DNA from: Pseudomonas sp. GM78
Lineage (GTDB): Bacteria; Pseudomonadota; Gammaproteobacteria; Pseudomonadales; Pseudomonadaceae
NCBI RefSeq assembly: GCF_000282475.1
Contig: NZ_AKJF01000016.1
Coordinates: 1 to 32,084 of the forward strand
Direction of reading: 5' to 3'
Length of the DNA: 32,084 nucleotides
Part shown: in pieces, positions 1 to 18,325 of the stretch
Numbering within the stretch: the first letter of the stretch is position 1
Layout of the letters: each line of letters opens with the position of its first letter
The notes under the pieces: model-generated
What the model was told of the DNA's origin: nothing
Databases searched by the model: none
What the model saw: only the letters and a program-made list of their open reading frames with translations
Translations under genes and position numbers: made by a program

Positions 1-547
1 CGCCACAATCGCTGACGAAATAATCGACTTGCATACTGCGACCCTTGATCCGAATGGAATAGCAGGCCAGAAGGTCTGCCACATTGCTCGTAGGCCATAT
101 CCAACGCCTTGATCACCAGATCGGCGTCCGGCTTTTCCGATAACCCCCAGCCCACCACCCGGCGCGTGCAAAGATCCAGCACGACAGCCAGGTAATGCCA
201 TTTCCCCTGGGCCTGTACGGACCGGACACTTGGTTGGGGGCCGGGACATCGAACTCCCGATTCAAGATGTTCGGGATATCGAGTCGCTCTACCGTCGCTC
301 GTTTGTAGGCATGTGATCCGGGTTGTTTACTGACTAAATCAAGCTCACGCATCAAGCTGCGCACTTTGAACCGGCCGAGCTGCTCACCGTATTCAAGCAT
401 CAGCGACAAGATGCTGCGGCTGCCGGCAGCGCTACGACTTTGCGTGAACAACTCGCTCACCCGGCTGCGCAACCGAAGCCGTTCAACATCGGGCGTGCGG
501 CGCCTAAGGCGCTGGGCGTAGTAGCACGAACGAGTGACTTCAAACAC
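1..547 (-). pseudogene. IS3-family transposase OrfB, broken and cut by the window edge
   Basis: The minus strand encodes an IS3-type OrfB (DDE transposase) that cannot be functional. Positions 547 to about 215 read as the N-terminal helical part (YYAQRLRRR..., then REFDVPAPNQV). At about 215-240 the expected stretch with the first catalytic aspartate (usually WCGDITY) is missing and the frame changes. In the new frame the sequence resumes as GKWHYLAVVLDLCTRRVVGW and continues to FHSDQGSQYAS (second catalytic aspartate) near position 20. The gene then runs off the window. OrfA lies just upstream, and normally the two are joined by a programmed frameshift. The element is a dead remnant marking the left edge of the accessory region. 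The family call is firm; the subgroup is not determined. Confidence 0.85.
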
Positions 548-591
548 CTTGCACAGCCAATCAACCGGCTCATGGACGCTCAGCTGATTGA

Positions 592-924
<333 letters not shown>

Positions 925-942
925 TCTCGCCTAAATGGGTGT

Positions 943-962
943 CCGGTTTCATTAGACCACTA
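943..962 (-). repeat. Putative IS3 terminal sequence, inverted copy at 17045-17064
   Basis: Read on the minus strand, these 20 bases (tagtggtctaatgaaaccgg) lie just upstream of OrfA, where the outer terminal repeat of an IS3 element should be. The plus strand at 17045-17064 matches 19 of 20 bases. The copies face each other across the five-gene operon and the hemopexin gene. The match is seen directly; calling it an IS end is inference from its position. Confidence 0.5.
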
Positions 963-990
963 CATGGAATGGATAAGATGACACTCAAAG

Positions 991-1362
991 TTGATTGTGA
1001 GTTCTGGAGGCGTAAATTCCGACACGGGCAGCTCCTGGTGGAGCGTAGCGCATCACATCGCTCTTTTTGGCTCTATAATTGCCAGCATTGTGGCGGGCGC
1101 ACTCATTCAGGTGGCACCGAATGATTCGCCACATATAGCAGCCACCACTCTTACGGCCATCGCTGCAGCTTTGACTGGTATGGCTGCGGCAGGCGGGTTT
1201 GAGCGCAAATGGCGCAGCAACAGATTGAGTCGAAGTAGAATTGATGGGCTGCTATTGGATCTGGACGCTGACTCAATCGATATTGGGGCGATCACCAAGC
1301 AGCTCAAAGTAATAATCCTTCGGCACGATCAAGACATAGTTCTTCAAGATCCAGCAACGTAG
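991..1362 (+). CDS. Small two-transmembrane protein, SLATT-like, probably 5'-truncated
   Basis: The 123-residue product has two hydrophobic segments (about 21-42 and 49-70) separated by a short loop. A basic cytoplasmic-looking motif follows (FERKWRSNRLSRSRID, 70-85), then an amphipathic helical tail. This pattern resembles SLATT/DUF4231-type two-TM proteins, which are predicted membrane-perturbing effectors of nucleotide-signalling defence systems. No sensor or nucleotide cyclase partner gene is nearby. The start is uncertain: the first in-frame initiator is TTG at 991, there is no clear ribosome-binding site, and an in-frame TGA lies at 979. The IS3 end lies about 30 bases upstream, so the original 5' end and promoter were probably removed by the insertion. 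Assignment to SLATT rests on topology and the basic motif only. Confidence 0.45.
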   Translation: MIVSSGGVNSDTGSSWWSVAHHIALFGSIIASIVAGALIQVAPNDSPHIAATTLTAIAAALTGMAAAGGFERKWRSNRLSRSRIDGLLLDLDADSIDIGAITKQLKVIILRHDQDIVLQDPAT

Positions 1363-1475
1363 GAAGTTCAATTCGGTGCGATGATCTCCTCACTGGAATC
1401 GCGTTTAATTTCGGCCAGGCTTTGACTATTGAATTCCCACGTCACGATTTCAATAATCACGATTTGGTGGCGCGA

Positions 1476-1691
1476 TTACAGCGCTTCTCGCGCACCTTCA
1501 GATCCGAGCGAGTGCAGATAGCGCAGGCAACCTTCAATCACGGAGGCCAGCTAGGTGTCCTCGATCCAGGCCGTGAGCTCTTCCAGCTTCTGTCAGGTGT
1601 CAAGTCGACACCGGTGCCGCAGTTCCTTCTCGTCATATCCGATCCGCTTCAGCGCTGCTTTGGCCGATCGTTCTTTTCCACTCTTGGTCAT
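1476..1691 (-). pseudogene. Small gene with two in-frame stops, unknown family
   Basis: A 72-codon frame begins with ATG at 1691 behind a good ribosome-binding site (AGAGGTAGGTC). It opens MTKSGKERSAKAALKRIGYD and is broken by TGA at codon 33 and TAG at codon 47 before TAA at codon 72. Between the stops it still reads like protein: QKLEELTAWIEDT, then LASVIEGCLRYLHSLGSEG. The basic N-terminus and helical remainder could suit a small DNA-binding protein, but I do not recognise the family. It lies just downstream of the OrfA-like gene at 1701-1982 on the same strand. Most likely a decayed gene; suppression of two different stops is less likely. Confidence 0.4.
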
Positions 1692-1700
1692 GACCTACCT

Positions 1701-1982
1701 CTACAATTCCAGTGGCCGGGAGCCCAACGTCTTGATGGTGGAGGCGATGCAGCGCCCGTGGTCGAGATAGTACCCGACAGCCTTTTCCCGTTGGGCCAGT
1801 GAGTACTTCGGCTTCGGGAGCACGTAGCCACGCGACAGGTTGAGGCATCGCTCGTACTCTTCATGCCAGCTCTTCAGAGAATTCTTCGTCGGGTAGCCCA
1901 ACTGACGAATGGTTGCCCCGGTGCGCTTCCCCAGTTTGATGTAGAGCTTGACTGCTCGGATGCGGTCTTCGTATGAATACAT
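1701..1982 (-). CDS. IS3-type OrfA-like transposase, orphan remnant
   Basis: The 93-residue product starts MYSYEDRIRAVKLYIKLGKR and contains two successive helix-turn-helix units: ATIRQLGYPTKNSLKSWHEEY (about 23-43) and a second beginning YSLAQREKAVGYYLDHG (about 60-76). This arrangement is familiar from OrfA proteins of IS3-family elements, which bind the element ends. The C-terminus looks cut off at IKTLGSRPLEL, inside the second unit, and no OrfB follows. It sits between the 3' end of the five-gene operon and the small pseudogene at 1476-1691, so it marks insertion and decay at the downstream edge of the operon. Confidence 0.65.
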   Translation of the reverse strand: MYSYEDRIRAVKLYIKLGKRTGATIRQLGYPTKNSLKSWHEEYERCLNLSRGYVLPKPKYSLAQREKAVGYYLDHGRCIASTIKTLGSRPLEL

Positions 1983-2040: not shown

Positions 2041-3735
2041 TTAATCGGTTGGTGGGCCCGTGAAATCGAAAAAGAGGCCGGCGTTGCTTTCTCCACGACC
2101 GGCCTTTTTCTGCCGACCCCGCCAGAGGTGGGTGGAGCCATCGGTCCATCTGGCCAGTTGGTCGACCATTTGCAGGCGTACTCCTGCGCGGCTTACTTCC
2201 TCCTCATACACTCGGTCGATGTCGAGACCGAGCAAGCTCGTGGCATCGCGGAGCGTGACATTGTCAGGCTCAAGGAGCAGACCGCGCTCCAGCATGAGCG
2301 AACCGTTACCGTCGGCGCTGGGGTCGATGGTGACGAGTGGAACCCAACCTTGGGGTATCCAGGTAGCGACCTGATAGACGAGGTCAGGAGGCGTTTCGCC
2401 TTCGGGGAGATTCTCCACGCTGAGCGGTTCAGGTTTGCCAGGGGCGACGGCAACCGGGCGGCCAGCGAGGCCCAGTATAGACTTCTCAATGATCCAGGCG
2501 AGGTTCGCTTGCTCATCGCGTTCGAGCAACACATCCTCGAGCGGGGCGCTTTGTTGGCCGTAAAGGACCGCAGGCGGGATGAGGAGGAATGATTGGTCCG
2601 CCAACGGATCTTCCGTGGTGGAGAGTTGAAACATCCGCCCAACCTCGTCTTCGTCTTGGGTGAGATGGGTACCGATGAGGGTTTCAACGCCAAACGTATC
2701 GGTCACGATGATCCAATCGATACGGGTCACGGAGCCGACGGGCAGTTCCAACGGTACAACGAACCAATCGGGGCTGTAGATCACGGCATATTCGGTGGCA
2801 AGCATACGGGCGATGTCAGTGGGGCCGGCATCGACCGTGCCTAGATCGATGAGTCCGTCCTCCATCTCCCAGAAACGGTCTACGGGCATACCAGGGAAGC
2901 TCACCGGTTTGGGGAGGTAATGGGCATGGATCGATTCAGGAGCAACTTTGGCTGTGTCGAGTGAGGCGTGTGGGGCCACGTCGAGGTGGTACCAATCCAG
3001 GCCCGTGCCATCATACTCGGTGGCGGTCATGGTGATTTCGCTGTCAAAGGCGGGTGAGGAGACCGAAAAGGCGTATTCAAGCCGCTCCTTTTGCCAGGTG
3101 TTACCTTGCGCGTCATCGCTGGGGATGCCCAGTTCATCGTTCATCCACTTGCGCCAAGCCTTAAATACTTCGTTGAACTTGTCAGGATTGCCGGAGGCAG
3201 CGCGGATATCAGCGAGTGCTGCGTTTTTTTCGGCGTTCGCACTGATGCCATTGATGGCGTTTTTGAATATGGCTGCGTAGCGGAGCTCGTGCGTGCCTGT
3301 ATTTTGGTCCCGGTCGTTTTTCGGCGGGAATGGAAAGCGATCCCGCAGTAGCGGAACGGCTGCTGCCAGACCGTTGGCTAGGAGCTCCCGTTCGAGGCGC
3401 AAACCACCTTTCGCGGCAAGCTCCCAGGCGCGTTCAATTGCTAGAGGTTCAGCTTCGATAAGAGGCTCGAGCGGCATCGTATTCGGATCGTAATCGACTG
3501 CGGCACTGGGAGCGTCCGATAGCAGCCCGGGGCGGTAGCGCGCCAGTGGGGCCCAAGATGCGCGAAGCTCAATATCGACGGGCGACCCGCCGTCGTCCCC
3601 GGTAAACTCTCCGAGCTGGAGCTGGCGCGCCAAGAACCACATGGGGTCGGCGACTTCGGCCGCGAGGCCCACATCGATGTCGGTGGTTGCGGCGTGCGGT
3701 TCGATACGCGCCCAGGTAGTCAGTTGCTCAGTCAT
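2041..3735 (-). CDS. Operon gene 5: conserved 564-residue protein of unknown function
   Basis: Last gene of the five-gene operon. The N-terminus carries a striking motif, DPMWFLARQLQLGEFTGDDG (30-49), followed by SPVDIEL. I recall variants of it (DPLWLLARQWQLGEF-like) from uncharacterised proteins in many bacteria. The C-terminal region has EEEVSRAGVRLQMVDQLARW and the terminal GRGESNAGLFFDF. No signal peptide, membrane segment or known catalytic motif is visible. Composition is that of a soluble, mixed alpha/beta protein. The ATG overlaps the previous stop by 8 bases (ATGACTGA), with an AAGGA-like ribosome-binding site just upstream, so translation is coupled to the 1550-residue protein and the two products probably act together. 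Function unknown. Confidence 0.85.
   Translation of the reverse strand: MTEQLTTWARIEPHAATTDIDVGLAAEVADPMWFLARQLQLGEFTGDDGGSPVDIELRASWAPLARYRPGLLSDAPSAAVDYDPNTMPLEPLIEAEPLAIERAWELAAKGGLRLERELLANGLAAAVPLLRDRFPFPPKNDRDQNTGTHELRYAAIFKNAINGISANAEKNAALADIRAASGNPDKFNEVFKAWRKWMNDELGIPSDDAQGNTWQKERLEYAFSVSSPAFDSEITMTATEYDGTGLDWYHLDVAPHASLDTAKVAPESIHAHYLPKPVSFPGMPVDRFWEMEDGLIDLGTVDAGPTDIARMLATEYAVIYSPDWFVVPLELPVGSVTRIDWIIVTDTFGVETLIGTHLTQDEDEVGRMFQLSTTEDPLADQSFLLIPPAVLYGQQSAPLEDVLLERDEQANLAWIIEKSILGLAGRPVAVAPGKPEPLSVENLPEGETPPDLVYQVATWIPQGWVPLVTIDPSADGNGSLMLERGLLLEPDNVTLRDATSLLGLDIDRVYEEEVSRAGVRLQMVDQLARWTDGSTHLWRGRQKKAGRGESNAGLFFDFTGPPTD
2069..2105 (-). terminator. Possible intrinsic terminator inside the 3' end of operon gene 5
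   Basis: On the minus strand a 7-base GC-rich stem (AGGCCGG at 2105-2099 pairing with CCGGCCT at 2081-2075, 17-base loop) is followed by CTTTTT. It lies about 30 bases before the stop codon of the 564-residue gene, so it overlaps coding sequence. It could end operon transcription, or be a by-product of the GRGESNAGLFF codons. Confidence 0.3.
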
Positions 3736-6700
3736 CGCTGGTCCTTAAATCACGGTTAGCCGCCCGCCAGATTTCGTTGGTGCCATTGAGCCATTCTTTA
3801 GCGATCGCGTGGAGCCGTTCAATGTGGTCCATGCCGTCGCGGGCATAGATGGCGGGAAGGTATTCATCCACGGCGGTGGGTTCGAGCTGCGGTAGCTCGA
3901 CTGTCCGCAGCGAAGCCAGTTCCAGCGTGTCGCAGAGCATGGCTTCGATCATGGTCCACGACCACGGCGAGGCGCCTGCGGGGTCTGGATGGACCGCAAG
4001 CAGGATCGATTGCGGGGCACGGGCGTTGGGCGCGTTGTAGTTGAGACCGACACCAGTGGTTTGAGTCGCAGAGGGGATGATCTCGGTCCACTGGTCAAGG
4101 ACCAGTGCTTCGATCTTCGGGAGAGATCCACCGCTGGCTTCGACGACAACCATGTGGGTTTGGGGGCCTTGCCAGGGCTGGTAGCGGCGTAAAGGGTTTT
4201 TCTTCGCACCTTTGACGACAACCTTCTCGGGCAGCATACCGCCCAGCCAGTTGGTCTTTTCACCCAGTGGCAGCTGGAAGACACGTGGCACGGGTACATC
4301 CTTGTCGTTGAGGACTGAGGCGAAGGTGCTCAGGTCGTCATAGGCGGCGACAGCCGGCTGCACTCTGGCCATGTGGGACAGCCACTTTTCGACATCGTCC
4401 GCATTGGCTGCAAACGAGGCGTCGTCGAGCAAGGGTGATTTCACACCAAGCGTCAGGGTAACGGTGGGGCCGAGCAGGGCGCGAGCTTCTGCGATCAGGT
4501 GATCAAGCGGGGAATCAGTGTCTTTGGGGGTGGTTGCCTGCTGGGCAGCCGTGGGGAATGATTTGAGTCTTGCCGCCTCGGTCGCCATGAGAATTGCTTC
4601 GGCGGAACAGATTGCTGCACGGATGCGGTCGGTGAGGTGGGTGTCCTTTGGTCCGACAGCGCTGGGTACGCCAAAGGTTGCGAGAATCTGGAGGTACTTA
4701 TTGATAGAAGCATTATCGAGTTTCTCTGCCTTGACGGCACCGAGCTCGCTTGGGAGAGATGCCTTGAGGTTTGTCAGAGCGTCTTTAAATGTGCACTCTA
4801 ATTTATCTAGCAATGCCCTGAGACCCTTGAGTTCACGTTTGCCTGGGGCTGGGGCAAGGGGGTCGCCAGGCAGTTGTAGATCGCGCTGGGTCAACGGGCG
4901 AGCCGTAGAAAGTACATCGCGTGCCGCGCCTGCCAGAGCCTGCAATTGGTCCCAGCTGTACCCCTTACCGGCGTCTCTGACCCTCGCTCCATCCTTGCCG
5001 GCCTTGGCGACGCAACGGTCGGCCAGGGGCGACTGGGCGGCGATGCCGCCGGTTGCCTCGCATATGACATCGAGGGCGCAGATCGGCGGTTTGAGGTCAG
5101 ATAGCTTGATCAATCCCAGATCTTCTTCGCCCGACGGTTTAGGCAGGTAAATTTGGACTTGCCAACGACTTGCTGAGCCCAGTAGGCGCCGTGCCCAGTA
5201 CTCGAGCGAAGAGCAAAGGCGCGCACGCGGCGCGTTGTCGCTCCATCCCTCAACGCCAGGATCGCCGCCGTCCAGGGCCAGGACGAGCCGATGGTTTATG
5301 GCCTGGCCGTTGCGCGGGCTGCGGACCACATCCAGGTCGGGCGGCAGCGGATCGCCTCGGGCAATGGCGTTGAGCGTTGCCGCAGCCCGCGCATGATTGC
5401 CGCCGACAATGTTGTGGACGCCTTCGGCGACGAGAATATCGGCTACGGACTCTACGGCAGCATCGACCACCTGCATGGCGGCGTCGGCTGGCTGGAAGGC
5501 TTTGTCGTACTCATCCATCCGGTCACCGCTGACACCGTCCGGCAATTGTTTTTTTCCGCTGTCTATCCACACCTTCCACTGCCGCCAGGCGGTCCAGGCT
5601 AGTTCACCATCGACGACATTGTCAGGGACGGTCTGTTCGGCGTCGCTCTTATCCGTTGGCACACTGCGCTGCGGGAAGAGTTCACGCAGTGAATAGACGT
5701 GTCCGGAGAGTTCAGCATCCTGCAATGAGCGCTCCAGGCGATAGCCCAAGACCGCACCTAATGGTTGCCCATTGTGTACAGCATCGATGAGGTTTACCGC
5801 CGTCCGGATCCGCGCCGAGGTCAAGTCGATACGAGCCAGGGAGCTTCCATCTTCGTTGGCGCGACTGAGTTCGGCCGAGCGAAGCACGGAGGCGGTCTCA
5901 GCCTGGGTGATCGATGGCGCATGCACCCAACCCACTTGCGGCCGAGGCGTAACCAAAGGGAGTTCACTATCGCGGTCCACAAGTTCTGGCTGAGCGTCCT
6001 TGGCGGCAGGATCGGCAGGTTCATGGGGCTTGGGATAGGGGGGAAGATTGACAAGCCAGCCATAGGCACCGATGCGTAGGCCCTCCGGTTGCGCTTGCCG
6101 CAGGAAGTCGAGCCGGCAAGTGGCAATGGAGGTGATCCATGCATCGAGACGGGTGCCGCAGGATGCCAGGGTTTCGCCCATGAGCCGGGCGAAATCATCA
6201 CCGCAAAGTCCTGCCGGATTGTCGGCTGTACGCGCCGCCGCACAAAGACCGGCTATCGATTTCTGCGTGTCGGAAAAGGCCATGATCGGTGGAGCTTCAT
6301 CAAGCTGCTTTGGATGCACGCCGATGATCTTTGTAATGATCGCCTCTTGCTCCACGAGCTCGGAGGGGCTGAAGTCAGCGAACTCCTCACCGATCTTGAA
6401 TTTGAGATCCTCGGCGAGCTTGCCAAGCTTGGTCGTGGGGATAACTGACGGTGGTTGAAGATCGGAGGCGAATCCGGACTGAACGGAGGTGAGCTCGACC
6501 AAAATGCGGTGGTCACCCGAAACTTCAGTTACCACCGCTAGCGCCGAGTGCTCGTTGGCGAGGAGCAGCGACCGAATGAGTAGCTGGTAAAGGAGGTCGC
6601 GGGGTGCCTTACCCTCGGGCCATAAGTCGGCTGACTTGAGCTCGCCGACCTTGGAGGAGGCGAGTTTCGCGAGGTAGTCGAGCGGCAGCTTGCCTATCTC

Positions 6701-8380
6701 GGTTTCGACTGCCGGAATGGTCAGGAGTACCGGTTCCTGCATGTCGTAATCGAGGAAACGTGCCTTCTTGGGGATACCGGGAATGGTGCCCAGCAGGATT
6801 CGATAAATTCGCCCCTGAATTGAAGCGGCGAGTAAGCCGACATCGTCCGGGTCTTTGATGTTGATCAGGTGAATGGGATTGCTGCATTGGGCCAGCGTTC
6901 CAGCCTCGCCGGTCACGGTGCGCACGCAATATCCATTGGCATGGGGTACTGGTCCGAGGCCCATGATCTCGACAAAGTTCTGGCTTGCCGATTCGGCATC
7001 CTTGAGGTCGCGGGTAAGTCTGGGTGTTCTTTCGGCGCCGTATTCCCAGAACGGTCGTAGGCGGTCGAGCAGGGTCGCAAGCTGCGTGAGCATTGTTTTG
7101 TTCTCAGCCTCGTTAGCCTGCTGTTTCCATGATGAATGGTCGGTAACAGGCAGGATCCCGTAGGGTTGACGACCGAGTCGTAGCACCGGCAGAGGGCCCC
7201 GGCTTCGTACGTAACTGCGGAAATGACCGCGACCGAAGCTGAGTGCGGAATTCAGCCCTTCAATCAGTGGCTTGTCCGTTGTGCCATCGAACACCTTCGG
7301 CATCAGGAGGTTGCCGATCATCTCGCCCCAGGTCACCGCAAAAAGCGCATCGTTCATCAGCCGGGCGTGGTCCTGTTCATGCAGGGTCGCGTTGTCCAGA
7401 TCATCGAACGTCCCTGCCGGAAGGCCGAACGCAGCGGCGAGTACCTCGCAATTGCTGCCGCCGCCGCTCAGGACATCTTTTGGAAAAGGCAGCGTTTTGG
7501 CAGCAGTGGCGGGGCGCACCGAGCCCGGGTCGGGACGGGACTGCCAGCCGGAACTGGCCCCCTTGAGGTTGTTGGTCGGTGTGCCCTGCGCAAGGATGCC
7601 GGCGCCTCGCCGCTCCTTGTGCTGTCGGACCATCCTGGCGAACGCCTGGGACTCGTTTTTGGGTTCCGCGTCTTCGCGCATGCCGAAGACGAGAACGCGG
7701 CTGATAGTGCCGGTTCGTGCGGCAGTAGGATTGCCGGCATCGTCGAAAAGATCGACGGTCACTGCCATGCCGGCAGCTTCAGCCATCGAATAGTCAGCAA
7801 GCCACAGGGTATCGGCATCAAACTTCAACCGGCTTTGCGGATCAATGTTGAGCCGCTGGTCTGCATCCTGGGCGAAGCTGACGGCGAGCGGTTTGCGTAC
7901 CGGCTGGCTTATGACTGAAAAGGCGTGTTGATTGCCCACCCAACCGGTGACAACCCACCTGTCAGGCAGGAGTTCGGCAGTGGCGGCCGGGCTGTCGTTG
8001 CGCTGGGGGGCGCCGTGGTCGTCCTTGGTGTTCTTTTGCACGGAAGCGGCGCGATAAGGGCCGACGCGGCGGACCAGACGCTCCCAGAGCGCGCGCTCAG
8101 CGATGTACGAGGACTCATCCTCGGGAGTATTGGCGACGTCGGCCCAGTATTCAGTGCCGGCCTCGACTTCGGCTTTGCTGAGATCCTGCCTGTTGTCCCG
8201 GATCGAGATATCGTCAGGATAGATGCGCAAGCGCAGCACTGGCATTGAAAGCTCACGACCATCCGCGAGTTTGGCAAGGCGATTACCGAAGCGCATTTCC
8301 AGGCGTACCGGCAACAGTGCAAGCGGCAGGTTGCGCTCCAAACCGCTGAAGATGTCATTTGGGATTGGCAATGTAGTCAC
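3728..8380 (-). CDS. Operon gene 4: conserved giant protein, 1550 residues, unknown function
   Basis: The N-terminus contains LLPVRLEMRF (22-31) and LRLRIYPDDISI (49-60). A central motif reads GRQPYGILPVT (403-413), and the C-terminal part has LDQWTEIIPS (about 1428-1437), a stretch ending APQSILLAV, and then CDTLELASLRTVELP. From memory, the same motifs recur in large unannotated proteins of actinobacteria and myxobacteria; no function is known to me. There is no signal peptide, transmembrane helix or recognisable enzyme motif, so the protein is probably soluble. GTG at 8380 is the only start near the preceding stop, giving a 26-base overlap; the ribosome-binding site is weak, which suits translational coupling. 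The extreme length in a bacterial operon suggests a structural or scaffold role, but that is inference. Confidence 0.85.
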   Translation of the reverse strand: MTTLPIPNDIFSGLERNLPLALLPVRLEMRFGNRLAKLADGRELSMPVLRLRIYPDDISIRDNRQDLSKAEVEAGTEYWADVANTPEDESSYIAERALWERLVRRVGPYRAASVQKNTKDDHGAPQRNDSPAATAELLPDRWVVTGWVGNQHAFSVISQPVRKPLAVSFAQDADQRLNIDPQSRLKFDADTLWLADYSMAEAAGMAVTVDLFDDAGNPTAARTGTISRVLVFGMREDAEPKNESQAFARMVRQHKERRGAGILAQGTPTNNLKGASSGWQSRPDPGSVRPATAAKTLPFPKDVLSGGGSNCEVLAAAFGLPAGTFDDLDNATLHEQDHARLMNDALFAVTWGEMIGNLLMPKVFDGTTDKPLIEGLNSALSFGRGHFRSYVRSRGPLPVLRLGRQPYGILPVTDHSSWKQQANEAENKTMLTQLATLLDRLRPFWEYGAERTPRLTRDLKDAESASQNFVEIMGLGPVPHANGYCVRTVTGEAGTLAQCSNPIHLINIKDPDDVGLLAASIQGRIYRILLGTIPGIPKKARFLDYDMQEPVLLTIPAVETEIGKLPLDYLAKLASSKVGELKSADLWPEGKAPRDLLYQLLIRSLLLANEHSALAVVTEVSGDHRILVELTSVQSGFASDLQPPSVIPTTKLGKLAEDLKFKIGEEFADFSPSELVEQEAIITKIIGVHPKQLDEAPPIMAFSDTQKSIAGLCAAARTADNPAGLCGDDFARLMGETLASCGTRLDAWITSIATCRLDFLRQAQPEGLRIGAYGWLVNLPPYPKPHEPADPAAKDAQPELVDRDSELPLVTPRPQVGWVHAPSITQAETASVLRSAELSRANEDGSSLARIDLTSARIRTAVNLIDAVHNGQPLGAVLGYRLERSLQDAELSGHVYSLRELFPQRSVPTDKSDAEQTVPDNVVDGELAWTAWRQWKVWIDSGKKQLPDGVSGDRMDEYDKAFQPADAAMQVVDAAVESVADILVAEGVHNIVGGNHARAAATLNAIARGDPLPPDLDVVRSPRNGQAINHRLVLALDGGDPGVEGWSDNAPRARLCSSLEYWARRLLGSASRWQVQIYLPKPSGEEDLGLIKLSDLKPPICALDVICEATGGIAAQSPLADRCVAKAGKDGARVRDAGKGYSWDQLQALAGAARDVLSTARPLTQRDLQLPGDPLAPAPGKRELKGLRALLDKLECTFKDALTNLKASLPSELGAVKAEKLDNASINKYLQILATFGVPSAVGPKDTHLTDRIRAAICSAEAILMATEAARLKSFPTAAQQATTPKDTDSPLDHLIAEARALLGPTVTLTLGVKSPLLDDASFAANADDVEKWLSHMARVQPAVAAYDDLSTFASVLNDKDVPVPRVFQLPLGEKTNWLGGMLPEKVVVKGAKKNPLRRYQPWQGPQTHMVVVEASGGSLPKIEALVLDQWTEIIPSATQTTGVGLNYNAPNARAPQSILLAVHPDPAGASPWSWTMIEAMLCDTLELASLRTVELPQLEPTAVDEYLPAIYARDGMDHIERLHAIAKEWLNGTNEIWRAANRDLRTSDD

Positions 8381-11300
8381 TCGCTTTAAGGAGAACCTGA
8401 AATGGACGCTGGAAGAGCAAGGTGGCGATTTGCCCGGCGTCGGTCGACGGGCCCCAGCGAGCCGGGGGCGTGTCTGGTTTCCAATTTTCCTGGTTGGGTA
8501 TGCCCTTGCTGACAGTCAGGTGCTCGCGGTCGACCAGGCTTGCGAGGTTCTGCCAGGAAAGATCGTCGGGGGTAGGCCCCTTGGCTTTGCCATCGCCAGG
8601 ATTCTCGGCGGGTTTTTCAGCCTCGTCTGGATTCTCGTCAAGGCCAAACTTGGGCTCATCCATGGGCTGAGTGAGAGCGATGTACCAGCAGCTCTTGTCG
8701 GCGAGATCGGGAGCCCTGAGAAACTCTCGGCTTGCAGCCAGGCCGGCATAGGTGATGTCGGGATCGAGGAAACCCGGGAACATCTGTCGAATGGGATTGA
8801 GGTCGGGGTTGCCGATGGTCTGGATGAATTGGCCTGCATCCACGCGGCCGTGGATGGCAGATATGTCGGTATTGGGATACACCCGGAGCAGATCGCCACG
8901 CACAACCACGACGATATCTTCGCCGGGATGGAGGTCATCGGATGGACCGTTCTCGCCCAGACGCTTGGTCCATTCGTGAAGGGCGGCAATGTCGTTGGGC
9001 CCCGTGGAAGACCAGAAGTGAGCAAAACAGGTGCCCATGAGGTCTGTCGGATAGCGCCGCCATTGCAGTTCGCGCGCCATTTCGTAGTTCGCCCCCACCA
9101 AGAGCGCCTCGACGAAGCGAGCATTGGTGATGAGGATGCTGATCGAGTTCAGCGGCAGTTTTTCGGAGTGCCCCAGCAACCATTGCGGGTTGAGTCGCTT
9201 AAGTCGTTCGAGCACCGCATCTGGAAAGCGGGGTGCGGCCATAATCTGATGTGCTGGCGAGCGACGACGAGGGAGGCCGACAACTCTCTCGCTTGCCAGT
9301 GGCAATGCCCATTTGAGCATGCGGGTGTATTGACCCAGCGGTTCGAGACAATCAACGATCGATTGCTTGACGGTCTCGGTATCGAGCTTTATCACGGGGC
9401 GCAGCGCAGTGCGCTGTTCGGCAAGCGTGACAATTGGAGGCATCTGCTCGGTAACCGCTTTGACAATTTCGCTATCGTTCAGAATGGCGGGTGGACCGAA
9501 TTGGTAGTCGTGGTTGAACTGGGAAAAGAGGACACTCTGCATGCGCAAGTTTTGGCCTACAGCGGTGATCTTGTCGGCGTTCTGCTCAGTAATGGCACCT
9601 ACGAATTTGTTGAGGTTCTCCTGGCTTTTTTCAGAGAGCACATAGGTGGTATTTGCGGCGATGGCGGCTTTGCCCAGCACGCCGCCGGGTTGAATCAGTG
9701 TCGGGAGCTCCTTGGCTGCAACTGCAAACGCGTGCAACGGCTGGCCGACCTTGGCGGGTGCGGCAGCAGCAATAGCGTGGATTTGGGGGGAAAGCAGCGC
9801 TTTATCGGCGGCCCGGGTTGCAAGCTTTTTGAACTGGGTCGGTGTCGCGATGACGACGGCCTGGACAGTAGGGGACGCGACCAGGCCGGGGACGACGACG
9901 AATTGGTTCAACAGCTTCCCCAGCCCTGCGCCATTGCCCGCCTGTTGGACTATGAGCCCGCCCGGTTCAATGCCGAGTTTGCCGATATCCGGAACATGGC
10001 CTTCATCGTCGAGTTGACCGGCTTCGAACCGTTTGTGTTCGACTTCCGGGGCAAGGACGATTCTGTCCTTGAGGGTGGGGATGGTTGCGGTCAGCGCCTT
10101 GAGCTTATTGATACTGTCATCGAGCGTCAGGCCACTCATGGCGATGGTAACTCTCTCGCTGAGCGTGGGATCTTTGAAGAAATCCCTGAACTGCTCCGGT
10201 GCGACGTGCTGCACAGGAGTAAAGCGATTGCGCAAGACCGAACTGCCAGTGAGCATGATCGGTACAAGACTCTCGACGATGCCGGTGTTGTGCTGCGCGC
10301 CGTGAACCTGCATCGATGATCGCGCGACGGCCTTGGCGGCAAAACGCGTCGCGCGTCCAAAAGCGGCGCCAACGACGGTGAGCGGTAGCGAAGTGGCGAC
10401 GATCCGGGTAGCGACAGTCGTGCCGTCCACTATCAGGCGCCCAAGGGCCGGCGAGGTGAGGCGCAGGACGCTGGTTGCGCTGCGAACTTCGAGCCGCTTC
10501 TTGTGGAGCTGCAGTGCGGTGCTGAGGAAGACCTGGCTCCAACGCGCGCGGCGGTTGGCATCGGCGATGGACTGTAGCTGCTGCCAGGCTTGCGCCATCA
10601 GCGCTTCCTGGTCCTGTTGCACAATCCGAGTGCCAAGGGCTGCGGCGGCGCGCATTTCTGGGTCGGCATTGAGTTCCGTCAGCCAGGGAGCATTGCCGCT
10701 GACCACCACATCAGGACTCTGGGGCTGGTCGTCGATTGACGCCATCTGGGCATGCCAGCGGCCATAGATCGGCGGGCCGACCACGTAGCGCTCCTTACCC
10801 TTATCGTTCTTGGCTTTGGCCTTGGTGAGGTTCACCAGCATTTTGAGCTTGTTGTCGACGACCTGGCGAAGCTGCGCTTGGGTCTTGTCGTCTGAGATCG
10901 GAGAGAGTGGACCGGGCTTGCCATTGTTGGAGATTGCCGTGCCCATGTGTAGGGTGATCGGCTCGAATTCAGTCTTGCCGTTTGCGCCGAGCTTGGCAGC
11001 AAGGCGTGATGCCTTGGGGTGCAACCAGATACTGCGTTCGCCAACCGAGGCATCCGGTATGCAGGCGGTCAGCTTTTGTGCCAGCGTCTCGAAATCTCCT
11101 GCTGGGCCAGTCTTGAAGCGCCAATAGTGGAAGACCGGCAAGCGAACTTTAGCGTGTGAATCAATCGACCAGGCCAACGATGGTTCGGGGCCCGTCTCCT
11201 TCTCGAATTTAGGTATTTCGCCAAGCCCCGCCTGAACACCCAGGGCGAAGGTGGGAACGACGCACGCTACCCAGCTGTGGTTCTTCTCAAGTTTGCGCGG

Positions 11301-11870
11301 ACAGATCAGGCGCGAGATGATGAGACCACTATTGGACTCCCAGTCCTTGAGCAGATCGGCAGCTCTGCCGTCGGTTGCGACTTGCACATGGGCCCAGGCC
11401 CAGCTTTGGTTGAGGTCCGGCAATAGCTTAGGGCTAACAGTCAGGGTCGGGTTGGGTGCACCGGGTTTTATTTCCCAGTCATTATTTTTGTGGCAATCCT
11501 CAAGAACGATGAGGTTGATCCAGGGCTTGAGTTGATGGTGCTCGTTGGGCGCGTTAGGGGTGAGCAGCCAAGGGAGATCCGGGTGGGCAAATTCGATATG
11601 GGCGAGATAGTTTGCCTCGTGGATGTCGTTCTTGGGGCCGGGCGCCATCCTGACAACTTGGCTCGTTTCGAAACCGGTGACGTCTCCCGGGCCCAGCAAA
11701 CCATATTCACATTCGAAGTTGGTGTGTCGTTCCGCTCCTTCGCGCTCGGTCAAGTGCAACACTAAGCTAACCTTGGCCCTGGCGCGACCGTCCTTGAGAT
11801 TCCCCGCAGCAATCCCTGCCGCAGATCCGTGTCGGGAATAGGGGAGGAATTGATAGTTACTGGTGCTCAT
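8355..11870 (-). CDS. Operon gene 3: conserved giant protein, 1171 residues, unknown function
   Basis: I chose ATG at 11870 (MSTSNYQFLPYSRHG) over the in-frame ATG at 11885. The inner start overlaps the previous stop as ATGA and has GGGAG 8 bases upstream. The N-terminal part has YGLLGPGDVTGFE (56-68), then HPDLPWLLTPNAPNEH and LKPWINLIVLED (114-125). The C-terminal part holds NYEMARELQWRRYPTD (928-943) and GDLLRVYPNTDISAIHG. These motifs are familiar from uncharacterised proteins of distant bacteria, typically hypothetical. The middle (about 400-800) is helical and alanine-rich, with repeated LKDR/AAAP-type segments. No signal peptide or membrane segment is seen. It probably partners the products of its overlapping neighbours; the activity is unknown. 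Confidence 0.85.
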   Translation of the reverse strand: MSTSNYQFLPYSRHGSAAGIAAGNLKDGRARAKVSLVLHLTEREGAERHTNFECEYGLLGPGDVTGFETSQVVRMAPGPKNDIHEANYLAHIEFAHPDLPWLLTPNAPNEHHQLKPWINLIVLEDCHKNNDWEIKPGAPNPTLTVSPKLLPDLNQSWAWAHVQVATDGRAADLLKDWESNSGLIISRLICPRKLEKNHSWVACVVPTFALGVQAGLGEIPKFEKETGPEPSLAWSIDSHAKVRLPVFHYWRFKTGPAGDFETLAQKLTACIPDASVGERSIWLHPKASRLAAKLGANGKTEFEPITLHMGTAISNNGKPGPLSPISDDKTQAQLRQVVDNKLKMLVNLTKAKAKNDKGKERYVVGPPIYGRWHAQMASIDDQPQSPDVVVSGNAPWLTELNADPEMRAAAALGTRIVQQDQEALMAQAWQQLQSIADANRRARWSQVFLSTALQLHKKRLEVRSATSVLRLTSPALGRLIVDGTTVATRIVATSLPLTVVGAAFGRATRFAAKAVARSSMQVHGAQHNTGIVESLVPIMLTGSSVLRNRFTPVQHVAPEQFRDFFKDPTLSERVTIAMSGLTLDDSINKLKALTATIPTLKDRIVLAPEVEHKRFEAGQLDDEGHVPDIGKLGIEPGGLIVQQAGNGAGLGKLLNQFVVVPGLVASPTVQAVVIATPTQFKKLATRAADKALLSPQIHAIAAAAPAKVGQPLHAFAVAAKELPTLIQPGGVLGKAAIAANTTYVLSEKSQENLNKFVGAITEQNADKITAVGQNLRMQSVLFSQFNHDYQFGPPAILNDSEIVKAVTEQMPPIVTLAEQRTALRPVIKLDTETVKQSIVDCLEPLGQYTRMLKWALPLASERVVGLPRRRSPAHQIMAAPRFPDAVLERLKRLNPQWLLGHSEKLPLNSISILITNARFVEALLVGANYEMARELQWRRYPTDLMGTCFAHFWSSTGPNDIAALHEWTKRLGENGPSDDLHPGEDIVVVVRGDLLRVYPNTDISAIHGRVDAGQFIQTIGNPDLNPIRQMFPGFLDPDITYAGLAASREFLRAPDLADKSCWYIALTQPMDEPKFGLDENPDEAEKPAENPGDGKAKGPTPDDLSWQNLASLVDREHLTVSKGIPNQENWKPDTPPARWGPSTDAGQIATLLFQRPFQVLLKASDYIANPK

Positions 11871-13849
11871 GCCTGAAGCTCCCATTGCGCAATTGCGGTC
11901 AGAGCACGACCGGCCGCATCGGTCAGACCGATAGTGGCTCCCGGCTGGACGGCAATACCGGGGTCCAGAACCGTTATCAATTGCTCGAACTTGTGGACGG
12001 GGCGCAAGTGCTCACCGATGATCACGCTCGAAAAAAAATCATCCCGGTTGAGCTTCGCCATGATCAGGCGATCGTTACGTAGTTCGCGGATTTCGTAGGT
12101 ACAGGGGCAGCTCGATTCCAGCCCTTGCATAGAGGCCGCCGATCCGATGTCGAGACCACAAGGAAGATCGACATAGCCGCTGCGGCTGAGCCGGTCATTG
12201 CCTTCGATCCGCAGGAAGCGGTCGGGGATGAACTTGTCCATCACCAACCTGAGCTCGATCTTGTCTAGGTTGACGCTAAGGGTCACCGGCTTGGGAAGGG
12301 TGACGCCATCGACCAGTGCCAGTTCAGTTGCTATCGGGATTCTGTGCTGCCGGAAGGATACGCCGCTCAAGGGATGAAACAGCGTGTCCTCGCCAGCTCC
12401 ACCTCGCAACCTCACAATCGGCGGCACTTCGGCGGAGGTCACAGCCCAGTTTGAAGGTTCCTTCAACGCCTCCTGGAGAACGCAGAGTGGATCAAGTGCC
12501 GATGCCCGTACGGCTTCTGGTCCCCAGCTCAGTGACGGCAAGTCGATATCGACATCGAAGAATAGGATCGAGATCGAGGCATGCCCGTTTATGCGCCATT
12601 TAGCGGGGCCGCTGAAGACTCCACTGAGGCTGATACTGGCGACGTCGAAATCGGCGCATTCGACGCTGACCTCACCCGTCAAATCAGCCTCGAAAGTGAA
12701 GGGGTCATATTGGATAAATGCGTCGAAATGCGCGTGGCCGTGGATACCATAACCATCGATGCCCGCGATCAGCTCGACCACGGCACCGAACTGCAGTGCA
12801 GTGGTGGTGATGGCGAGATAGGCCTCCGCCCGCAGCTGCATCAGCGGGTTGGGTGACAGATCGACGCTGAGCCGCCGCATCCCGGTCATCCCTTCAGGAG
12901 CGGCATACCCAGGGTAGAATCCACCCGCTGACAGGACAAAGAGCGGGTCGGGACCGGTGATCATGCGAAGGCGGATATCGCCATCGACTGGCATGAAAAT
13001 GATGCGCGAATTGCGGAGCGTTGCATCGATGCGCACACCCGATTGGTCGATATCACCCTTGATCAGGGCTTGCAGGTAGATGAGAGGAGCGGACTCAGAA
13101 GGAAGCGTAACCGCGATACGGCCAAGGATGATGGCCTTGGCGTCGGCGGTTGACAGGATGATGGCAAGGGTCGCAGACATCATCGTCGGTGTGCCCCAGC
13201 CCATCTTTACCATCGGCCCGACAAGCACGCCGCCATCCTTGTAGGGGAAGCAGCGGCTGGCCACATCAAGCAAGTGCGGCGCTTCGACGACGGGGTCTCG
13301 GGGGAAGAGCAACCGGGAGAGGTCGCCTGCACTCAAGGCATCGGTCAGAGCATCCTCATTGGCATGACGGTTTATGCCGACAATGCCACCTACACCGACA
13401 AGGGTAAAACCGAATGAGAGCTGCAGTGGCGGGTTGAATTCGGCAGCCATGAGCAGGAGCGTCGAAAACTGGTCGAGCCCGATGACAGCTAGCGCATTGA
13501 CGCTGATAACGCCCAGATTGGCCGCGAATGAGCCCCTCAGTTCCTTGTTGCTTTCGCCATATTGCGCTAGATATCCGCCGCCGCTTACCGGCGGGACGGT
13601 GATTTCGGCGGCCATGCCTCGAGGCGGTTTTGGAATAGGGTTGAATGAAAGCGCTCCGAGGTCGCCATCGCCGCCCTTTTTGAGCTGGATTTCGATCATC
13701 GCGCCGAACCTGTCCACCGTCGCAGAGATGCCTGGCAGGCTGATGGAAGCAGTCGCGTCAATGCCAAAAGACAAGAGCGTATTCGGATTTTCCGAAGGCC
13801 GAGACGAGGAAATGTCGAGATCGATGATGATCTTGGTGCTGTCGCTCAT
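11867..13849 (-). CDS. Operon gene 2: DUF6603-like beta-rich protein, 660 residues
   Basis: Residues about 100-445 match the DUF6603 pattern as I know it: GVGGIVGINR (152-161), LLFPRDPV (180-187), GGVLVGPMVKMGWGTP (206-221), and a long run of alternating hydrophobic strands ending GPAKWRINGHASISILFFDV (414-433). Such alternation suggests an elongated, all-beta body with one hydrophobic face. The last 200 residues form a separate domain with a CPC pair near residue 590 and no family I recognise. There is no signal peptide. The ATG overlaps the upstream stop as ATGA (13846-13849), so it is coupled to the 293-residue protein, whose beta-rich part looks similar in style. DUF6603 has no established function. 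A scaffold or lipid/hydrophobic-ligand role would be speculation. Confidence 0.8.
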   Translation of the reverse strand: MSDSTKIIIDLDISSSRPSENPNTLLSFGIDATASISLPGISATVDRFGAMIEIQLKKGGDGDLGALSFNPIPKPPRGMAAEITVPPVSGGGYLAQYGESNKELRGSFAANLGVISVNALAVIGLDQFSTLLLMAAEFNPPLQLSFGFTLVGVGGIVGINRHANEDALTDALSAGDLSRLLFPRDPVVEAPHLLDVASRCFPYKDGGVLVGPMVKMGWGTPTMMSATLAIILSTADAKAIILGRIAVTLPSESAPLIYLQALIKGDIDQSGVRIDATLRNSRIIFMPVDGDIRLRMITGPDPLFVLSAGGFYPGYAAPEGMTGMRRLSVDLSPNPLMQLRAEAYLAITTTALQFGAVVELIAGIDGYGIHGHAHFDAFIQYDPFTFEADLTGEVSVECADFDVASISLSGVFSGPAKWRINGHASISILFFDVDIDLPSLSWGPEAVRASALDPLCVLQEALKEPSNWAVTSAEVPPIVRLRGGAGEDTLFHPLSGVSFRQHRIPIATELALVDGVTLPKPVTLSVNLDKIELRLVMDKFIPDRFLRIEGNDRLSRSGYVDLPCGLDIGSAASMQGLESSCPCTYEIRELRNDRLIMAKLNRDDFFSSVIIGEHLRPVHKFEQLITVLDPGIAVQPGATIGLTDAAGRALTAIAQWELQA

Positions 13850-14727
13850 GGCGCGCTCGAATGGTTGAGTTCGAAGACCGGTGACTGGCCCTTCTCCACA
13901 GTGAGCGAGGGGCTGTACTGCTCGTTAAGTGGGTTGGTGCTGAACATGACCCAAAGATTTCCGAGCAAGGGCCTCAGGTCTGCCTTGGCTCCAAGGCCAG
14001 GTGCCTTGGGCTCGCCCATCTGCGCAAAAACGCTCCAGTCAATCGTGCCGTCGGCAGTGACCTCGAGTTTGCCTCCGAGCGCTGGTGCACCGATGGTCAG
14101 GTCGAATCCCATATCTGCTGCGGTAGTGCCAGCGAGGATGGGTGCGGCGAACGCCATCTTGGCGGTGATGCTGGCGGTGCCGACCCCCACTCTGGTTATC
14201 GCGCCTCCGATGGGGATACGGAATTCGACATCGCCAACTCCGGCGGCCTCGAGCTTTAAATGGCCGACGTCCTTGTTAATTTTTGGGCCCTTGCGGGTCG
14301 AGACGATGAAGCCGCTGATGGCATTCGGACCGAGGGATATGGCTAGACTGAGTTCGGCTTCGCCGGCGCCTAAGGGTTGGGTGAAGTTGAGGAGCAGTGC
14401 CCGGTTCCAGTTCTCACCAGGATTATCCCAGACGCCGATGGTAAGCTGTTCGCCTACGATATTTCTGAGCTGGACGGCCAGGAAGATCATCAGGCTCAAC
14501 CAATCGGGTGGATCGACCACCCGCTGGAGTTCCTTCCATAGGTCATCGGGTAGCTTGGCGATCTGGCGCTTGGCATTGTCGGCAACTGTCCCGACCTGCT
14601 CGATCGTTTTGGACAGAATGTCGGTGAACCGATCGGGCGCCTTCTGCACAATTTGGCTAGCCTCAGCAATGCCGTTCTGAAGCACTGTTGCGAGCTCATT
14701 CGCCAGTTGGTCTAATGCAGATGCCAT
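13846..14727 (-). CDS. Operon gene 1: helical-plus-beta protein, 293 residues, unknown function
   Basis: First gene of the operon. Residues 1-75 are strongly helical and amphipathic (LDQLANELATVLQNGIAEAS, then IEQVGTVADNAKRQIAKLPD), with an apolipoprotein- or phasin-like look. From about 85 onward the sequence is beta-rich, with regularly alternating strands such as AELSLAISLG, GFIVSTRKG and GTASITAKMAF, similar in style to the DUF6603-like product encoded next. No signal peptide, no true transmembrane helix and no catalytic motif are seen. The start ATG at 14727 has GGAGTTGAGCG just upstream. Since it heads the operon and is ATGA-coupled to gene 2, it may bind that protein. Family not recognised. 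Confidence 0.8.
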   Translation of the reverse strand: MASALDQLANELATVLQNGIAEASQIVQKAPDRFTDILSKTIEQVGTVADNAKRQIAKLPDDLWKELQRVVDPPDWLSLMIFLAVQLRNIVGEQLTIGVWDNPGENWNRALLLNFTQPLGAGEAELSLAISLGPNAISGFIVSTRKGPKINKDVGHLKLEAAGVGDVEFRIPIGGAITRVGVGTASITAKMAFAAPILAGTTAADMGFDLTIGAPALGGKLEVTADGTIDWSVFAQMGEPKAPGLGAKADLRPLLGNLWVMFSTNPLNEQYSPSLTVEKGQSPVFELNHSSAP

Positions 14728-15820: not shown

Positions 15821-16990
15821 ATGATTACTAAAGCATACTTCATTTATGGTGGAAATTACGTTAGATATGATGCCGCAACAGATTCAAGTGATGCAGGATA
15901 TCCAAAGCAGATCTCCGGTAATTGGCAAGGCTTTTCCGCCTCCGGATTTGACGCAGGGATAGAGGCTGCTGTAGATGATAACGGATTAAAAATATACTTC
16001 TTTAAAGGAGGTCAATATGTTAGATATGATATTTCTTCAAATAGGATTGATAATGGCTATCCGTTGAGGATTGCCGACCTTTGGCCTGGAATGTCTGACT
16101 CTGGATTTGACTCAAATATTGATGCTGCGGTCAACTGGGGTAATGGCAAGATATTCTTCTTTAAAGGCAACCAATATCTAAGGTACGACTTGGCCGCAGA
16201 TCATACGGATAATGGCTATCCTGTTTTAATATCAGATGGGTGGCCTGGCTTTCAAGCGGCGGGCTTTGCAGATTCAATAGACGCGATAGTAAACTGGGGG
16301 AACGGCAAGGTTTATTTCTTCAAGAGCGACAAATATTTGAGATATGATATTGCTGCCGATGCAATAGATCCAGGATACCCAGATGATATTGGTAATGGAT
16401 GGGATATAGGCCCGCAAGGAAGGATAGACGCCGCATGGACGATTTCACATCAACCAATAAATCCCACGAACTTCAACTACTTAGGTCAACAATTCTTTGC
16501 AAAACTAAAAGCCACCTGTGTGCAACTGAATTGTAGCGCTGAAGACCTGCTGGGTGTAATGGAAAGTGAGAGCAGCATTCAACCAAGTGCGCAAAATCCC
16601 AATGGCAAGGCAACAGGATTAATCCAGTTCATGCCTCAAACCTTGATAGGTCTTGGATGGAATAATGGTCCAGATGCATTCAGGCAACTATCTGCATTAG
16701 ATCAATTGCCCTATGTAGAGAATTATTATCGTCCACATGTAGGCAAGCTCGCAACAGCAGGACGGTTATATCTGGCTACATTTCTCCCCGCCTTGCTAAC
16801 CCCCAACACCCAAGAGGCAGATGTTGTATGTGAGCCCGGCGGAATAAATAGTCAATTTTATCAGCCAAATCAGATGCTGGACACCAATAAAGATGGGAAA
16901 ATTACTGTAAGCGACCTAACTGAGCGCATCACCAAGGTTCAGCAAGGCGCCAGATGGGACGCATTGTTGGCATTACTGAATGGCGCTTGA
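15821..16990 (+). CDS. Hemopexin-repeat protein with lytic-transglycosylase-like and EF-hand segments
   Basis: The 389-residue protein starts with four hemopexin/photopexin-type repeats (about 3-50, 55-104, 107-156 and 160-206), each carrying YFFKG..YLRYD, a DNGYP turn and IDAAVNW. Residues about 220-330 look like a lytic transglycosylase/lysozyme fold: VMESESSIQPSAQNP with the catalytic Glu at 248 or 250, then TGLIQFMPQTLIGLGW (265-280). An EF-hand loop follows, DTNKDGKITVSD (354-365), with ligands at 1, 3, 5 and 12. No signal peptide is present, so export would need a dedicated machine or lysis. GGGAGGTGG precedes the ATG. The gene is visibly AT-richer than its neighbours, pointing to recent transfer. 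A secreted, calcium-dependent peptidoglycan-cutting effector with a binding propeller is a reasonable inference. Confidence 0.85.
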   Translation: MITKAYFIYGGNYVRYDAATDSSDAGYPKQISGNWQGFSASGFDAGIEAAVDDNGLKIYFFKGGQYVRYDISSNRIDNGYPLRIADLWPGMSDSGFDSNIDAAVNWGNGKIFFFKGNQYLRYDLAADHTDNGYPVLISDGWPGFQAAGFADSIDAIVNWGNGKVYFFKSDKYLRYDIAADAIDPGYPDDIGNGWDIGPQGRIDAAWTISHQPINPTNFNYLGQQFFAKLKATCVQLNCSAEDLLGVMESESSIQPSAQNPNGKATGLIQFMPQTLIGLGWNNGPDAFRQLSALDQLPYVENYYRPHVGKLATAGRLYLATFLPALLTPNTQEADVVCEPGGINSQFYQPNQMLDTNKDGKITVSDLTERITKVQQGARWDALLALLNGA

Positions 16991-17044
16991 ATTCAGATAA
17001 GTCCCTAGTGTGGTGTTTCATAAAAGCCACCGAAAATCACTTTC

Positions 17045-17067: not shown

Positions 17068-17219
17068 TGTTGGCGCCTACGCCGAATTGACCCAGTTGCC
17101 AAGATATCTCTGGCCATGTCTGATTCCTCGCGAACCACTACCTTTGCTGGATTTGTGCCGTTTTGGGCATGAGTCAATTTTGCGTCAGCACGTGGGTCAA
17201 TTCGGCGTAGGCGCCAACA
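17068..17219. mobile_element. 152-base element with perfect 27-base inverted ends, IS21-like
   Basis: Positions 17068-17094 (starting tgttggcgcctacgccgaat) are the exact reverse complement of 17193-17219. Just inside the right end, gagtcaattttgcgtcagc (17171-17189) is an imperfect repeat of gggtcaattcggcgtaggc (17194-17212). Repeated copies near the tip are typical of IS21-family ends. The interior is too short for any transposase. It may be an internally deleted IS21-type element or a MITE. It supplies the last codons of the integrase gene. No flanking direct repeat is evident. Confidence 0.55.
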
Positions 17220-18319: not shown

Positions 18320-18325
18320 TGCTCT

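Follow-up and report, generated by a model that had tools for sequence, protein, structure and literature searches.

Four large genes in Pseudomonas sp. GM78, one encoding a member of the DUF6603 family, form a conserved unit that occurs in Pseudomonadota, Actinomycetota, Gemmatimonadota and haloarchaea and that may encode an undescribed molecular machine. The DNA analyzed here, referred to as the window, is the whole contig NZ_AKJF01000016.1 (32,084 nt), part of a 7.29 Mb genome. Its minus strand carries five consecutive genes: P0001 (13846..14727, 293 residues), P0002 (11867..13849, 660 residues, the DUF6603 protein), P0003 (8355..11870, 1171 residues, or 1176 from an upstream in-frame ATG), P0004 (3728..8380, 1550 residues, GTG start) and P0005 (2041..3735, 564 residues). 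P0002 to P0005 constitute the conserved core. By their coordinates all four junctions overlap, by 4, 4, 26 and 8 nt, which confirms the arrangement given in a preliminary description made from the sequence alone. Since the opposite strand also has long frames (698 residues at 8223-10319), frame length by itself is no proof of coding; what proves it is that distant phyla have homologues of these very frames.

Scanning a species-genome collection with P0005 patterns alone yielded 33 loci, with best segments 26-64% identical, and six-frame profile searches of the fetched DNA located all four families at 29 of them. Locus L006 has P0003-P0004-P0005 within its flank, with P0002 directly adjoining P0003 in an extended stretch (L092), and L008, L010 and L019 are cut off by a contig edge, P0004 adjoining P0005 in each. 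The complete loci keep the order P0002-P0003-P0004-P0005 on one strand, except L024, L030 and L034. At 66 of 77 same-strand core junctions, a count that includes duplicate loci, the gap is 20 nt or less, and P0004 and P0005 are fused into a single frame at 16 of the 33 loci. Because unsupervised gene calling chose the wrong strands in several GC-rich loci, these counts are based on six-frame profile hits or homology-trained gene calls.

The search profiles contain many of the same rows as the loci tested, and the plasmid and actinobacterial loci serve as more independent checks. Among 72,556 plasmid records, tblastn with P0003 matched 13, which come from Streptomyces, Nocardia, Rhizobium, Paraburkholderia, Gemmatirosa and four haloarchaea. 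Eleven were read (H11 and H12 were left out), and ten of these, including three of the four haloarchaeal ones, hold all four families; L041, L043, L044, L046 and L047 lie outside all profiles, and each is complete. Among 245 further actinobacterial genomes, four have a P0005 match, three of which (G417, G474 and G559) hold the complete block. At the loci recovered with P0005 and P0003 the families thus occur mostly together and not alone, and the preliminary description was right to expect relatives in distant phyla. What it had presented as a conserved five-gene unit holds across phyla for four of the genes. All three motifs that it singled out are present in the window: DPMWFLARQ of P0005 (consensus DPLWLLxRQWQFGEF) and GRQPYGILPVT of P0004, as GRQPYG(I/V)LPVT, recur strongly from locus to locus in the alignments, but the NYEMARELQWRRYPTD region is kept more loosely (NHEFNRELLWRExPTD).

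Some loci carry larger or additional proteins. In haloarchaea (L037, L041 and L042) P0004 is enlarged to 2225-3225 residues, and at L037 and L042 it is annotated with a BGTF surface domain and P0005 with a lamin-tail domain. Two Rhodobacteraceae-like loci, L030 (11725-16781) and L034 (11698-16844), have two extra large proteins between P0005 and DUF6603; Pfam gave no match for the three that were searched (both of L030 and the first of L034).

The gene slot upstream of DUF6603 is exchangeable. We defined a coupled gene as one on the same strand with a gap of at most 60 nt upstream of DUF6603 and counted 51 loci after removal of six duplicates (L005, L023, L027, L115, L116 and L075); L045, where the DUF6603 gene was not called, is counted among those without a coupled gene. 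Thirty-five loci have one. By Pfam it is a WD40 propeller at 14 of the 35, a PhoD-like protein at three (L042, L078 and L087, the last slightly below the curated cut-off), an M64 peptidase at two (L089 and L114) and a subtilase (S8) at two (L094 and L096). At another four it is P0001. The other ten comprise two in a serine-protease context and eight without family identification. The coupled gene of L046 matches no Pfam family and overlaps a trypsin-like gene, a weak Nal1 match at L044 stays below its cut-off, and those of L030, L076, L095 and L113 have no Pfam family at E 0.01; those of L034, L074, L097 and L112 were covered only within the Pfam tally of the WD40 count.

Other proteins are encoded within a few genes of DUF6603 without being coupled to it: an astacin (L103), a Tle1-like phospholipase and a phospholipase D (PLD) protein (both L101), an M23/peptidoglycan-binding protein (L112) and an EEP-family protein (L095). 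Tle1-like sequences were recognized by eye in L085, L099, L102 and L105, and DUF2235 by annotation in L038. Hemopexin genes stand upstream of the core at three Streptomyces loci (L100, L106 and L108), and a subtilase lies downstream of it at L047. The absence of an enzyme motif noted in the preliminary description holds for the core; the neighboring slot often carries hydrolases. In a separate observation, four actinomycetes (G361, G365, G618 and G621) hold two or three DUF6603 loci each (among them L075/L114, L076, L094 and L096), and their copies with upstream M64 or S8 peptidase genes differ from the other copies in the same genomes.

P0001 belongs to this variable slot. A tblastn search of L001-L040 and the window, together with alignment of chosen upstream genes, recognized relatives at three other loci only, L067 (Marmoricola), L072 (Microvirga) and L073 (a Rhizobium metagenome-assembled genome), each immediately upstream of a short DUF6603 protein. 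Together P0001 and P0002 (293 + 660 residues) come close to the ~965 residues that many DUF6603 proteins of Streptomyces have. An hhalign comparison of P0001 with the N-termini of long DUF6603 proteins is suggestive only (E 2e-4, probability 46%). P0001 is possibly, to judge from these lengths and alignments, a split-off N-terminus of the longer proteins.

To characterize the core proteins, we searched family and structure databases. P0002 matches DUF6603 (PF20248) at E 3e-85, with 287 bits against a curated cut-off of 27, over model positions 21-474 of 502. DUF6603 is a family of unknown function and covers one of the four core genes; Pfam at E up to 1 gave no other family in the five window proteins, as the preliminary description had found in naming this family alone. 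NCBIfam, PHROGs and PADLOC gave nothing credible for the five proteins (one match at E 0.11 and one at E 0.06, the latter a PHROGs family whose function is not known; no PADLOC family matched). Against PDB sequences (E up to 1) the profiles of P0003, P0004 and P0005 matched nothing. Two transporter chains matched by the P0002 profile (E 0.05-0.08) were dismissed as chance, and phmmer against the PDB gave noise (three P0003 matches at E 1.3-1.6, none for P0004). By hhalign P0003, P0004 and P0005 show no homology to one another, save a weak match between P0004 and P0005 (E 0.0055, probability 7%). Our literature search, which most subscription papers lay outside, found no paper using the name DUF6603, and one on hemopexin combinations found nothing relevant.

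For residues 1-442 of P0002, AlphaFold2 modeling (29 rows) predicts 25 strands with few helices, a long amphipathic beta-meander. Hydrophobic and polar residues alternate along the strands far more than in shuffles (2.94 vs 1.43; z 7.6, 0 of 2000 shuffles). Foldseek places apolipoprotein B100 first among PDB folds (E 1e-3, template-modeling (TM) score 0.23), followed by porins, all with TM ≤0.25; in these models the matches reflect a local likeness of long amphipathic beta-meanders and give no family assignment. The P0005 model is mixed alpha/beta (predicted local distance difference test (pLDDT) 73, predicted TM score (pTM) 0.73), and its comparison with PDB folds gave nothing better than E 0.087, no credible match. 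The fold comparison called for in the preliminary description thus brought a local likeness for P0002 and no credible one for P0005.

DUF6603 also occurs outside the block, which limits the co-occurrence of the families. Among 299 Pseudomonadota genomes, eight others have DUF6603 without P0005 (L057-L064), in a distant cousin operon whose DUF6603 proteins are longer (1513-3286 residues). At all eight, the P0003 profile recognizes the N-terminal part of the protein directly downstream of DUF6603 (in a small protein set, E 1e-4 to 2.5e-13), and hhalign of seven of these proteins against the P0003 N-terminal domain gives E 2e-13, against 0.54 for a reversed control. The next gene at seven of the eight encodes 285-345 residues that weakly resemble the C-terminal end of P0003 (E 0.001, probability 20%). 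The large protein that then follows, where the stretch reaches it, has no relation to P0004 as tested (E 0.15). No P0005-profile match was found in the cousin operons, and their large proteins are unrelated to P0004 and P0005 in comparisons whose reversed-alignment controls are likewise empty. What the two operons have in common is DUF6603 and the P0003 N-terminal domain, and because the cousin keeps both, the DUF6603-P0003 pair may be the oldest part of the system. Upstream of the L058 cousin DUF6603 we noted a metallo-beta-lactamase-like gene, slightly below its Pfam cut-off.

Compared with known systems, the core stands apart. It contains no sheath, tube, spike or baseplate family of contractile injection systems, extracellular ones (eCIS) included, by Pfam, NCBIfam or PHROGs, and the contractile or eCIS-like assembly raised in the preliminary description is not supported. 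By Pfam and NCBIfam it has no TcA, TcB or TcC domain of the Tc (ABC) toxins, and the P0003, P0004 and P0005 profiles lack a PDB sequence match. The likeness to Tc toxins, eCIS and type VI secretion system (T6SS) effectors lies in payload genes that can be exchanged next to an apparatus that is conserved; one scanned locus (L101) has a Tle1-like phospholipase gene nearby, as do several others by eye or annotation. Streptomyces umbrella toxin particles appear similar in working, as large antibacterial complexes with exchangeable toxin parts; the five window proteins have no umbrella-type domain by Pfam, where we took an ALF-repeat scaffold and lectins as the domains for comparison. Because by sequence the core matches neither tails, Tc toxins, AsmA proteins nor defense systems, the four-gene block appears to be a new kind of system, and the match to a characterized one that the preliminary description had allowed for did not emerge.

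We propose, tentatively, that the genes at 2041-13849 encode one mobile, operon-encoded multi-protein complex, a modular assembly that bears interchangeable hydrolases or propellers, touches a membrane or lipid through DUF6603 and delivers the hydrolases in antagonism. P0003, P0004 and P0005 would form the scaffold, in which P0004 would bind P0005 directly, a contact inferred from their fusion. DUF6603 would contribute an extended amphipathic beta-sheet in contact with a membrane or with lipid bound to it. An exchangeable accessory protein (peptidase, PhoD-like phosphatase, peptidoglycan hydrolase or phospholipase, or propeller-type binding protein), encoded nearby and usually upstream of DUF6603, would be carried or displayed by the complex; the association of such a hydrolase with the core is putative and is seen as gene coupling. 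The modular particle would bring hydrolases to the envelopes or surfaces of its targets, with microbial competition as the most likely setting. Taken together, the peptidases, phospholipases, phosphatases and wall hydrolases resemble antagonism payload sets more closely than a metabolic pathway. A broader proposal, that the block represents an undescribed class of modular particles in bacteria and haloarchaea, with a DUF6603 sheet at the membrane and three giant scaffolds loading interchangeable peptidases, phospholipases, phosphatases or peptidoglycan hydrolases against other cells, is in our view rather doubtful. The preliminary description had inferred a conserved multi-subunit machine in place of island filler; the conserved unit is observed, and a physical complex would follow from it by inference.

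Several observations weigh against delivery of hydrolases by such a complex. The commonest coupled gene encodes a WD40 protein and no enzyme, 16 of the 51 loci have no tightly coupled upstream gene, the L006 genome (L092) has none, and the window's own accessory gene is divergent and outside the operon. By simple hydropathy no signal-peptide-like N-terminus was seen in the five window proteins, as the preliminary description had reported; the most hydrophobic 19-residue windows (Kyte-Doolittle 1.77 in P0002 and 1.96 in P0003) were judged not to be membrane helices. Nor was any secretion gene noticed among the neighbors, which leaves the complex no evident route out of the cell. Actinobacterial genomes are in any case rich in hydrolases. 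A distal control of genes at least 6 kb away (64 of 130 genes; six rows of L030/L034, some of them core genes, left out), a rough comparison and not a genome-wide enrichment test, has ABC transporters, response regulators and TetR regulators at the top with four members each among the families listed (25 of 128), and it holds one annotated phospholipase-D-like gene. The P0002 model is moderate (pLDDT 72, pTM 0.53). The unit itself varies: L024 is an inverted half-operon, DUF6603 lies downstream of the two extra large genes at L030 and L034, two core junctions exceed 1 kb, six-frame profile search did not detect P0005 in the Halobellus plasmid locus L045, and G572 has a P0005-like match of only 49 residues with no core neighbor on the 3.6 kb to the contig end. 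The weakest cousin, L059, rises above E 1e-3 with the P0003 profile in a larger protein set. It is the WD40 majority and the absent secretion signals that hold our confidence in the proposed carrier somewhat below even.

A carrier of lipids or hydrophobic ligands, in which DUF6603 would offer a hydrophobic groove behaving like apolipoprotein B or AsmA, the large partners would dock it to membranes and neighboring lipases and PhoD proteins would process the ligand, seems to us unlikely, if deserving of attention. The amphipathic strands, apolipoprotein B100 as best fold match, the Tle1-like, PLD and weak LCAT neighbors and cousin DUF6603 proteins of up to about 3290 residues all fit it. The long amphipathic sheet predicted for P0002 is indeed what it has in common with bridge-like lipid transfer proteins of the AsmA superfamily and with apolipoprotein B; but P0002 lacks a visible N-terminal membrane anchor, neither it nor three long cousins match AsmA, TamB or chorein in Pfam (E up to 1), and the TM scores stay at or below 0.25. 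Such a carrier would also leave the peptidase and peptidoglycan-enzyme neighbors unexplained, and the system occurs in archaea and in Gram-positives without an outer membrane. The lipid or ligand role suggested in the preliminary description thus survives as possible membrane or lipid contact via DUF6603, beside the antagonism it also named.

We consider it improbable that the block encodes a cell-surface or extracellular scavenging complex whose accessory hydrolases digest environmental polymers as food. The wide range of hydrolases would suit that role, as would the propeller, hemopexin, Ig-like and lamin-tail domains that lie close by or that core genes are annotated with, and the soil, sediment or root-nodule origin of several matching records, but the window proteins lack visible signal peptides, the distribution is patchy and mobile, on plasmids and islands, and no recurrent transporter neighbor was noticed (no count was made). 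An intracellular conflict or phage-defense complex with hydrolases as killing domains is quite improbable: the cytosolic-looking proteins, the mobile islands and the exchangeable peptidases with an EEP-family neighbor would agree with it, but the five proteins match no PADLOC model of known anti-phage systems, Pfam identifies neither an NTPase nor a nucleotide-sensing family among the core proteins, and peptidoglycan-directed domains make little sense inside a cell. That the block is a tail-like or contractile injection structure or a phage remnant is very improbable. In its favor, the accessory domain of the window is SLT and phage-lysozyme-like, and one of 50,697 phage records (L036, MT835531.1) has the end of P0002 with P0003-P0004-P0005; against it, there is no credible PHROGs match, IMG/VR scans with P0005, A1, A2 and A5 (P0004 left out) found no relative, and a viral fold library returned one unnamed protein at E 1.7e-5 with TM 0.12, the rest being weak. 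MT835531.1 is unannotated and labeled UNVERIFIED (Bacteriophage sp.), and its flank looks by eye like an actinobacterial chromosome, the core lying beside a gene that resembles an actinobacterial regulator. The record is probably a misclassified bacterial contig, and we rejected a phage origin.

In the window the block (2041-14727) lies between presumed IS3-type transposase frames and remnants (113..1982, minus strand), a probable island border on one side, and a hemopexin-SLT gene (15821..16990), followed by a minus-strand gene at 17174..18319 that we take to be tyrosine integrase-like, the probable border on the other, and an RND frame. The names of the flanking RND/OprM-like genes are likewise our assumption. 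By eye the RND efflux pump frame (18269-20260) appears to start within the protein, its beginning seemingly absent, and the island may be located within or next to a disrupted RND gene. The plus-strand, divergent hemopexin-SLT gene encodes 389 residues with hemopexin repeats (E 4e-46) and an SLT/phage-lysozyme-like part (E 2e-5) and is, by these domains, a candidate accessory enzyme. The kilobases that it spans have a GC content of 51% and 44% (44% at 16001-17000), far below the 57-62% of the block, which suggests a separate origin. Among 59 genomes of the genus and among 299 Pseudomonadota genomes, P0005 is present in this genome only, and the block is therefore probably a recent, mobile acquisition.

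These results describe four giant families, only one of which (DUF6603) is named in Pfam or NCBIfam, that move jointly between domains of life with their order and tight spacing kept. Should the complex indeed carry lytic enzymes that can be exchanged, it would represent a new machine for antagonism or delivery with no detected homology to tails, Tc toxins or umbrella toxins, and DUF6603 would gain a function.

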